A stretch of 44,031 nucleotides of DNA from assembly GCF_018609725.1 (NCBI RefSeq), contig NZ_JAHENT010000021.1:1-44031 (forward strand). The letters are read 5' to 3'. Every line of letters begins with the position of its first letter. The stretch's first letter is position 1. Origin of the DNA: Methanohalobium sp. (GTDB lineage: Archaea > Halobacteriota > Methanosarcinia > Methanosarcinales > Methanosarcinaceae). Below are positions 33,273-35,758 of the stretch, piece after piece. Both the position numbers and the translations under genes were made by a program. The notes below the pieces were generated by a model, which worked only from the letters and a program-made list of their open reading frames with translations, was not told the DNA's origin and ran no database searches.

Positions 33273-33396
33273 GCCGGGGTGGCAGAGCGGACAAATCCAA
33301 CGGTGTAACTATATATCTGCCGTGGAGTCTATACGCGGCAGGCTCGAGACCTGTTGTCCCTTTTGGGACTCCTGGGTTCGAATCCCAGCCCCGGCG
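33273..33396 (+). tRNA. tRNA-Ser(CGA) with an apparent 38-nt intron in the D arm
   Basis: The acceptor stem GCCGGGG (33273-33279) pairs with CCCCGGC (33389-33395), with discriminator G. The anticodon arm GCAGG-CTCGAGA-CCTGT (33338-33354) gives anticodon CGA. A GTCCC/GGGAC variable arm and T arm CTGGG-TTCGAAT-CCCAG are complete, as expected for class II serine tRNA. The D arm (starting GCAGAGCGGACAA) is interrupted. A bulge-helix-bulge-like fold (GGAC 33289-33292 with GTCT 33327-33330, bulges AAA 33293-33295 and ATA 33331-33333, inner stem TCCA/TGGA then CGG/CCG) predicts removal of about 33295-33332 and a mature 86-nt tRNA. A T-rich run follows the gene. Confidence 0.88.
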
Positions 33397-33487: not shown

Positions 33488-35758
33488 TTATTTTTTACCT
33501 TCTATCCTGATGCTTATAACTTTATCAATAAGGCTTTTTACATTACCATAACTTAAATTAAAATCATCCATCACCTTTTTTTGTTCCTGCTCAGGAATAA
33601 TTGCATCTATAACATCAATAGGAATTTTTGATTCGTCTATCAAACTTACTTTACTAAATCCAGTATTCATTATTATATCCAGATAATGTCTTTTTAGTAT
33701 TGCACCCGAGATACAACCCACATAAGCCTGAACAGAATCCTTTATCTTTTCAGGTATTTCCTGTAAAAGAACAATATCTGACACTATGAATTTTCCTTCT
33801 GGTTTCAACACCCGGTAAATCTCATCAAACACCTTTCCTTTTTCAGGTGAAAGATTGATTACACAATTGGATAATACAACATCAACACTATTGTCATTTA
33901 CTGGTAAATTCTCAATCTCACCCTGCCTGAACTCTACATTAGAATACCCTCTTTTTCGGGAGTTTTCCTTTGCCTTTTCAAGCATTTCAGGTGTCATATC
34001 CACACCTATTATCCAACCATTTTCACCAACTTTATCCGATGCCAGAAAACAATCAAAACCCGCTCCACAACCAAGGTCAAGAACTGTATCCCCTTTGTTT
34101 AAAGATGCCAGTGCAACAGGATTACCACAACCCAGACCGAGGTTAGAACTTTCAGGTACTTTACATATATCCTTCTCTGTATAACCTAAAAGTTTGCTGA
34201 CATCATCAGGTGTCTTTTTGCTACTGTAAATTGTACCGTATAACTCGCCCTTTTTTGCAATTCTGGAATAATTATATTTTACAATCTCTTTTATGCCGTT
34301 GTCACCCTTTCTGGGTATAGTCTTGATATCACATTGTTTGTGTAAACTCTTTCTGTAGAGTATGTTATATACACAAAACGGTATCATCCGTCCATCTGGG
34401 AGAATTTGTGTTACACAGCATTTTTTCGCTCTTTTTAAATCAAAATTATACTCATCCATAAATGCATGTACCGATACCAGTGTGATGTTATCAACCATAT
34501 TCGCTGAATCAGGTATTGATTTTTGACACAATGTACACAGAGATTTTACCGAATTTTCAGACCCCAATAACGAGGACATTGACAGGAGCGAGTCTATAGC
34601 GTTTATACATTTTTCCAGTTGTGATGTGAATTCAAGGTCAGGCAGTGCACGATTTAAGATATATTTTTCATAACTGGATTTATCAAACATCCGGGTAAGT
34701 ACAATATGATTACCCGTAATTTTATCATTATAAATATAGGAACATACTGAACAGGTCGGATAGGGACAGGGTATATTGAGAAAATCCTTTTTATTTAACA
34801 ATCCACCTGATTGTTTCTCTATTTTTTCAAGTATATCCGGAATTGTCAGGTGTTTATCCAGGAGTTTGTTCCTGCCTGTAAAAGTCGCGGGCTGAAAATT
34901 GACCATTTTTATATTATCATCGTCAAAAGCCGTTTCCAGTATAGCTCCTATTTCATCATCATTTACTCCTTCTATAATAGTAGGAACAAGTGCAACATTC
35001 ATACCCAGTTTTCTGCAATTTTCAAGTGCATCCATTTTGATATTAAAAAGTGGTCGCCCTCTAAGACTTACGTATGTCTCATCCGATAGACCATCAAACT
35101 GTAGGTAAATAACAGGGTTTCCTATACCATTCATACAGCTGTTACGGATTGTTCGGGATATTTTTTCAGCAAAATCTCTATCAGCAAGTTTAATACCATT
35201 TGTATTCAAAACAGGGTAAGTAATTCCCTTTTCGCCGGCATATTTTAAAATATCAAAGATATCAGGATGAAGGGTCGGCTCGCCCCCACTTATCTGTAAT
35301 ACTTCTGGATTCCCCTCACATTTTACATAAAGGTCAATCATTTCTTTAATCTTTGAAAGCGGTAAAGTATAAGTATCGCTGGAATCCGCAAAACATACAG
35401 GGCAATGAAGGTTGCACATATCTGTTATTTCAATAATTCCCACACAGGTATGCTGTCGATGTTCTTCACATAAACCACAATCATTGGGACAACCCTCTGA
35501 AACTGAACTTTGATGATGTAGAGGTTTAGAGCCTAATTTGTTGTATCTGGTCGCGTTGATGTAGTCTTTAGCATCTGAATAAATCAAAACATTGAAAGAA
35601 CCATGTAAAGGACAGGTTTTACGTAAATAAACTCTGCCATTAAAAAAAATTATGTTACAATCTATTAATTCCAGACAGATGGGACATACTGACTTTGAGT
35701 TTTCTATGGTTTCGTTATTTTCAAATATACCTTTTAGATTTAGTCTGTCCTCCCCCAT
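33488..35758 (-). CDS. Fusion of a Tes-like radical SAM enzyme with an ArsM arsenite methyltransferase
   Basis: A 756-aa two-part enzyme. Residues about 1-480 are a radical SAM protein of the COG1964/tetraether-synthase-like type: N-terminal CPIC...CPLHG, a GCPNDCGLC motif (about 89-97), the SAM-cluster motif CNLHCPVC (C115, C119, C122), QISGGEPTLHPD (155-166), and the late FMDEYNFDLKRAKKCC...DGRMIPFCVYN stretch (about 434-465). Residues about 497-756 are a complete ArsM-like methyltransferase with SAM motif VLDLGCGAGFDC (559-570) and all three As(III) cysteines, C544 (LGLGCGNP), C632 (SNCVINLS) and C682 (VGCISGA). ATG 35758 follows GGTGG by 5 bases. It likely makes an organoarsenical; the product is unknown. 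Confidence 0.85.
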   Translation of the reverse strand: MGEDRLNLKGIFENNETIENSKSVCPICLELIDCNIIFFNGRVYLRKTCPLHGSFNVLIYSDAKDYINATRYNKLGSKPLHHQSSVSEGCPNDCGLCEEHRQHTCVGIIEITDMCNLHCPVCFADSSDTYTLPLSKIKEMIDLYVKCEGNPEVLQISGGEPTLHPDIFDILKYAGEKGITYPVLNTNGIKLADRDFAEKISRTIRNSCMNGIGNPVIYLQFDGLSDETYVSLRGRPLFNIKMDALENCRKLGMNVALVPTIIEGVNDDEIGAILETAFDDDNIKMVNFQPATFTGRNKLLDKHLTIPDILEKIEKQSGGLLNKKDFLNIPCPYPTCSVCSYIYNDKITGNHIVLTRMFDKSSYEKYILNRALPDLEFTSQLEKCINAIDSLLSMSSLLGSENSVKSLCTLCQKSIPDSANMVDNITLVSVHAFMDEYNFDLKRAKKCCVTQILPDGRMIPFCVYNILYRKSLHKQCDIKTIPRKGDNGIKEIVKYNYSRIAKKGELYGTIYSSKKTPDDVSKLLGYTEKDICKVPESSNLGLGCGNPVALASLNKGDTVLDLGCGAGFDCFLASDKVGENGWIIGVDMTPEMLEKAKENSRKRGYSNVEFRQGEIENLPVNDNSVDVVLSNCVINLSPEKGKVFDEIYRVLKPEGKFIVSDIVLLQEIPEKIKDSVQAYVGCISGAILKRHYLDIIMNTGFSKVSLIDESKIPIDVIDAIIPEQEQKKVMDDFNLSYGNVKSLIDKVISIRIEGKK

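Follow-up and report, generated by a model that had tools for sequence, protein, structure and literature searches.

A radical SAM–ArsM fusion gene in Methanohalobium sp. and the conserved gene pair related to it

The window, a stretch of 44,031 nucleotides from contig NZ_JAHENT010000021.1 of the halophilic methanogen Methanohalobium sp., contains one gene in which a radical SAM protein runs directly into an arsenic methyltransferase, which raises the question of what these two enzymes would do together and whether their union reflects a shared chemistry or an accident of one genome. The favoured answer, to which a probability of roughly 0.45 is given, is that the two halves form a module that builds or remodels a methylated organoarsenical, and that the fusion is the single-chain form of a conserved two-gene module.

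Structure of the fusion gene and identity of its halves

The first-pass annotation had described a single gene joining a Tes-like radical SAM half, with a CNLHCPVC cluster motif, N-terminal cysteines (CPIC, TCPLHG) and a late PFCVYN stretch, to an arsenite methyltransferase (ArsM) half, and the profile and PDB matches of both halves agree with this description; all of these motifs are found in the reading frame, and the end coordinate then given (35758) is the ATG from which 756 residues are read. The residue numbers used here follow this ATG, and the features of the gene are collected in Table 1. Both halves align over their full length to separate relatives and the join lies in frame, and a frameshift artefact as the origin of the reading frame is ruled out, since the frame is open and both halves are conserved. 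The AlphaFold model of the fusion protein (29 alignment rows) exhibits mostly well-predicted halves, with poor prediction of the linker and of the stretch before C105, and Foldseek searches with this model returned GDGT-MAS (7tom, 7tol) first and ArsM structures next.

Table 1. Coordinates of the fusion gene and of its sequence features within the window.
Feature	Position	Strand	Residues and remarks
Whole fusion gene	33488..35758	-	756 aa from ATG; open frame, no internal stops
Alternative GTG start of fusion gene	35767	-	would give 759 aa
Radical SAM half, TrsS/Tes-like but neither	34325..35707	-	18-478
N-terminal zinc-ribbon-like cysteines CPIC + TCPLHG	35600..35686	-	25-53; PF23545
GCPNDCGLC...QHTC	35444..35494	-	89-105; three Cys common to Tes; also C105, missing from nearly all Tes
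CX3CX2C radical SAM cluster motif CNLHCPVC	35393..35416	-	115-122
IPCPYPTCSVC	34742..34774	-	329-339; C331 invariant in the radical SAM family of the fusion, Thr/Ser in Tes
LCTLC ... KKCC ... IPFCVYN	34364..34540	-	407-465; C408 and C448 missing from nearly all Tes
Short linker	34298..34345	-	472-487; upstream gene of separate pairs ends near here in relatives
ArsM half	33491..34312	-	483-756; profile and structure matches
GLGCGNP, first arsenic-binding Cys	34118..34138	-	C544 (CmArsM C72 equivalent); alignment to ArsM
SNCVIN, second arsenic-binding Cys	33854..33871	-	C632 (C174 equivalent); alignment to ArsM
GCISGA, third arsenic-binding Cys	33701..33718	-	C682 (C224 equivalent); alignment to ArsM
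Site of lost N-terminal CC motif	34226..34231	-	I510-Y511; alignment with other ArsMs and diverged partners

The protein belongs to the radical SAM superfamily, as PF04055 matches it at 68.8 bits (cutoff 29.5) and the CX3CX2C motif is present. Judged by its sequence, the N-terminal half is placed in an unnamed family between TrsS and Tes and is a member of neither, scoring 341.1 bits against the Tes model NF045702 (cutoff 450) and 348.8 bits against the TrsS model NF045646 (cutoff 490), while the radical SAM proteins of the paired relatives tested scored about 330–380 bits on TrsS and 280–380 bits on Tes. Assignment to TrsS was rejected on the cutoff; for placement in the tree, no TrsS sequence above the cutoff was found in the genomes searched. 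Assignment to Tes was rejected on four grounds: the cutoff; the 66-row tree, in which the ten Tes rows form their own 100/100 clade without the fused half; the cysteine pattern, in which all 43 family members compared have C105, C331, C408 and C448 and nearly all of the ten Tes lack them, with mostly Ile, Thr/Ser, Leu/Val and Gly, respectively, at these positions; and a separate true Tes elsewhere in the window genome (the C149 protein, 746.7 bits on the Tes model). Ten further cysteines are common to the family and Tes, and the fused half retains all 62 columns that are invariant in 43 relatives. The best Foldseek match of this half is 7tom (GDGT-MAS), with a TM of 0.75 over the target, and neither the ArsS (TIGR04167) nor the ArsL model stands among the best 25 of 131 NCBIfam matches of the fusion protein.

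The identity proposed at first thus holds in that the half is related to Tes and fails in that it is not Tes, so that Tes-like lipid chemistry cannot simply carry over. A lipid substrate had been proposed with it, the Tes-like half activating a lipid carbon and the ArsM half helping to build an arsenolipid, and this proposal is not borne out. GDGT-MAS is the best PDB match by structure as well as by sequence, and arsenolipids occur in algae and cyanobacteria (PMC5552862; PMC12159101 and its reference list), but the four grounds given above, the many bacterial members of the family and the lack of any lipid gene as a consistent neighbour of the pair make an arsenolipid product improbable.

The C-terminal half scored 317.4 bits on PRK11873 (cutoff 263), which places it in ArsM and not in another methyltransferase family, and it matches solved ArsM structures with E-values down to 1e-31 (CrArsM 5evj, E 7.6e-32). 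By the published definition of ArsM, a SAM-binding domain with at least three of Cys 44/72/174/224 (PMC5552862), it counts as an ArsM, having the equivalents of Cys 72, 174 and 224; the complete ArsM with three arsenic-binding cysteines claimed at the outset is therefore in place. The SAM motif is kept, and 46 of 48 invariant columns are retained. One of the two changed columns is the second cysteine of the N-terminal CC motif, which is kept in all 35 other ArsMs and in all 32 diverged partner methyltransferases and is lost only in the fusion. In CmArsM and AS3MT, the first methylation of arsenite depends on the Cys44 position, which we take to be that of the CC motif, and on the Cys72 position, and the methylation of methylarsenite depends on them to a lesser degree. 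Because of this loss, an already-organic arsenical is the more likely substrate of the fused ArsM half than free arsenite; reduced use of arsenite stays a prediction, as one known ArsM requires just two cysteines (cited in PMC8649762).

The lost CC motif, which may lower activity on inorganic arsenite, would also suit a radical SAM half that breaks carbon–arsenic bonds, the protein then being a demethylation or remodelling enzyme of a methylotrophic methanogen, and methanogens of this kind take part in dimethylarsenate demethylation (PMC10579292). The presence of the module in Chloroflexota, Asgard archaea and mycobacteria as well speaks against such a role, as does the futile cycle that a demethylase and a methyltransferase would run unless separately regulated, and a cleaving enzyme is accordingly judged very unlikely.

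The conserved gene pair, its exchanged partner and the fusion

The functional link that had been proposed between the two halves gains from the relatives, in which the same radical SAM family adjoins an ArsM-like methyltransferase in several phyla, a recurrence by which the join is no accident of one genome. Among family members of at least 485 bits (n = 49), an ArsM-like or DVU_1556-like methyltransferase lies directly downstream in 44, often with start/stop overlap, as against a thiol-rich methyltransferase directly downstream of 0 of 10 Tes genes, and the pairing label changes 3 times on the tree versus 16.0 times in shuffles. The five unpaired members (L104, L105, L109, L112 and L113) form one Chloroflexota clade with no adjacent methyltransferase; the diverged haloarchaeal relatives of the family have a methyltransferase partner in 4/4. 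The pair ranges over Halobacteriota, Asgard archaea, Chloroflexota and a Mycolicibacterium plasmid, and a conserved radical SAM–methyltransferase module is held to be well supported; a search of the available literature found no description of the fusion or of the gene pair.

Differential arrangements and partners were observed among the lineages. The two parts are separate neighbouring genes in seven Methanosarcinaceae (G003, G036, G064, G067, G068, G069 and G072), overlapping by a few bases or standing 7–52 nt apart; the partner is a true ArsM in this family and in Methanoperedenaceae, where a DUF547 gene sits between the radical SAM and ArsM genes. For Sifarchaeum, the family f10, other Asgard archaea, Chloroflexota and the Mycolicibacterium plasmid, the partner is best matched by DVU_1556, and in one case by PRK11873 below its cutoff; most partners outside Methanosarcinaceae and Methanoperedenaceae are not ArsM and have no equivalent of C72. 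The radical SAM family was seen in 38 of 350 Chloroflexota genomes, and the pair recurs at loci there (L085–L119 and L157, a set that includes Asgard archaea and the Mycolicibacterium plasmid) with generic annotation only. A plasmid cassette of haloarchaea (L159, L161, L162 and L163) contains the radical SAM gene and a DVU_1556-like methyltransferase, accompanied in most cases by DUF547 and a redoxin and in some by DUF3179 and a dihydrolipoyl-dehydrogenase-like flavoprotein; one such cassette is directly preceded by the gene of an ArsC-like small phosphatase that scores below the ArsC cutoffs.

One radical SAM clade (100/100) contains proteins with a DVU_1556-like partner, in Sifarchaeum and f10, and proteins with a true ArsM, in Methanosarcinaceae and Methanoperedenaceae, and within it those of Methanoperedenaceae, Sifarchaeum and f10 form one clade (99/98); in the methyltransferase tree, the diverged partners lie across a 100/100 branch from true ArsM. 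As one radical SAM clade has two kinds of methyltransferase, the partner has, on these trees, been exchanged at least once. The tree also suggests a second, independent recruitment of ArsM, at a level that is not significant (p-AU 0.064), and constraining the fused ArsM with the ArsMs of operons gave a p-AU of 0.25. In our view, nothing else in the sequences speaks as strongly as this exchange for arsenic, or something that ArsM handles, as the substrate of the module.

The physical fusion is far rarer than the pair. Of the 186 genomes of the order, one has the fused gene, and no second fusion was found in 112 family genomes, the 186 order genomes and the other genome sets searched, nor among the 7 loci from a scan of GTDB contigs with six short peptide patterns; the long Chloroflexota frames, of up to 822 aa, were rejected as fusions, being read-through of flanks. 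The concern raised at the outset, that the join might not be conserved in relatives, is consequently answered in two ways, as the gene pair is conserved and the fusion itself is not. At the same locus of the congener G001, the only further genome searched from this genus, an in-frame remnant (L049 5392-5940, - strand) joins residues about 2-39 to 638-759, with about 600 codons deleted and the flanking genes syntenic, so that the locus and its gene order gain independent support and the gene is seen to be dispensable in G001. The two genes of G072 (L056) share one frame and are separated by 7 nt, so that the loss of one stop codon would fuse them.

A fusion without functional weight, arising by neutral loss of a stop codon, caught as a gene being lost or produced by an assembly join of adjacent genes, would account for its presence in one draft genome only, for the deletion in the congener and for the lost CC motif. 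The retention of every invariant radical SAM column argues against a decaying gene, the remnant comes from an independent genome with both ends in one frame at the same locus, and the arrangement in G072 reduces the step needed to a single stop loss; the conserved pairing, moreover, stands regardless of the fusion. We consider an accidental join unlikely.

Genomic context and the proposed chemistry

Among the neighbours of the fusion gene examined (about 29–43 kb), no ars genes were recognised, in line with the earlier statement that no ars operon lies nearby. An Acr3 arsenite exporter is encoded on another contig of the window genome (L054 2093-3166, - strand), with an ArsM fragment and an HxlR-type regulator nearby, and a stand-alone ArsM is likewise found on another contig, indicating that ordinary arsenic detoxification is provided elsewhere. 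A tRNA-Ser(CGA) gene at 33273-33396 (+) adjoins the 3' end of the fusion gene; it was missed by ARAGORN because of an apparent 38-nt insert (about 33297-33334) in the D arm and was called tRNA-Ser(cga) once the insert was left out. This insert, at least part of which is matched in the alignment with the congener G001, may be a non-canonical tRNA intron.

The context of the pair in other genomes provides a link to arsenic. DUF547 lies beside the pair in haloarchaeal loci and is present in L033, and these DUF547 neighbours are homologous to DUF547 proteins of arsenosugar loci: homologues occur near arsS and TIGR04283 in Hymenobacter, beside TIGR04282 in Roseomonas, and near arsS in Burkholderia glumae. 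No DUF547 was found in the window genome or in the Methanosarcinaceae checked that carry the pair, so the link to arsenosugars is indirect for the fusion. On plasmids of Burkholderia glumae and Roseomonas (L182 3472-5669 and L169 5710-7944), a distant TrsS/Tes-like radical SAM gene adjoins DUF547 in loci with arsS or TIGR04282. MerA/lipoamide-dehydrogenase-like flavoproteins, redoxins and DUF3179 also recur next to the pair.

These flavoproteins and redoxins, together with CcdA and a disulfide oxidoreductase at other loci, bear on whether the module might act on another soft element (selenium, tellurium, mercury or antimony) or on a thiol, either a cofactor or a peptide, ArsM having been recruited because it tolerates that substrate. 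Such thiol-redox genes would suit this alternative, as would the closest families that have names, the DVU_1556 methyltransferases and TrsS, among whose members are selenoproteins; against it stand the true ArsM with three arsenic ligands as the partner in two archaeal families and the tie of the DUF547 neighbours to annotated arsenosugar genes. A substrate other than arsenic is judged rather unlikely, and arsenic is taken as the probable, by no means assured, substrate of the module in this lineage.

For an organoarsenical module, a sequence of steps can be proposed in which the CX3CX2C cluster would cleave SAM to generate a radical, the auxiliary clusters and the family-specific cysteines would bind a trivalent arsenic substrate or react with it, the radical step would make or remodel a carbon–arsenic bond, and the ArsM domain would methylate thiol-bound As(III), the presumed product being a methylated organoarsenical, as in the ArsS–ArsM and ArsL–ArsM pathways. 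What the sequences establish is the gene structure, the families, the pairing, the exchange of partners and the pattern of cysteines, whereas arsenic as substrate of the entire module, the sequence of steps and the product are inferred. That the radical SAM half itself makes the carbon–arsenic bond, argued by analogy with these pathways, is conceivable at somewhat less than even odds. More tentatively, the module could represent a third, evolutionarily separate radical SAM route to carbon–arsenic bonds. This route would occur in several archaeal lineages as well as in Chloroflexota and some actinobacteria, and the substrate would be handed between two enzymes that are merged here. The pairing, the partner exchange, the intact columns, the family cysteines, the DUF547 context and the ArsS/ArsL precedent were counted for the organoarsenical reading; counted against it were the absence of DUF547 from the window genome and from the checked pair-carrying Methanosarcinaceae, the partners that are mostly not ArsM outside the two families, the absence of the ArsS and ArsL models from the best 25 NCBIfam matches, by which the radical SAM half probably lies outside both families, and the singleton nature of a fusion that comes from a draft genome and is mostly deleted in a congener.

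Comparison with known systems

TrsS itself pairs with a DVU_1556 methyltransferase. This system (NF045646 with NF045667) resembles the fusion in that TrsS lies on the same branch of the radical SAM superfamily and DVU_1556 is the best match of the relatives' partner methyltransferases in nearly all cases scanned, and it differs in that the fused half falls below the TrsS cutoff with no in-frame UGA and has an ArsM as its partner, in one chain. Tes/GDGT-MAS (NF045702, PDB 7TOL) shares the fold, the N-terminal zinc-ribbon-like domain and the cysteines of the radical SAM and auxiliary clusters, whereas the score, the separate clade, the four extra invariant cysteines and the real Tes of the same genome set the fused half apart. 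ArsM (PRK11873) corresponds to the whole C-terminal half, with its SAM motif and the three cysteine equivalents, but the fusion has lost the CC motif and is joined to a radical SAM protein. The arsenosugar enzyme ArsS and the arsinothricin enzyme ArsL are radical SAM enzymes that work with ArsM on carbon–arsenic bonds (PMC8552651, PMC12159101), and the combination of a radical SAM enzyme with an ArsM is the same here, although ArsS and ArsL probably represent radical SAM families distinct from that of the fused half, neither model being among the best 25 NCBIfam matches of the fusion protein.

The fusion is, on this comparison, made of ordinary parts in a combination for which the literature search returned no description. 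As a natural fusion, it is strong evidence that an arsenic methyltransferase is the working partner of this Tes/TrsS-like radical SAM family, and it offers a definite substrate hypothesis for a gene pair that is widespread; if this hypothesis is true, a third radical SAM family would join ArsS and ArsL in organoarsenical biosynthesis and archaea would enter that chemistry.
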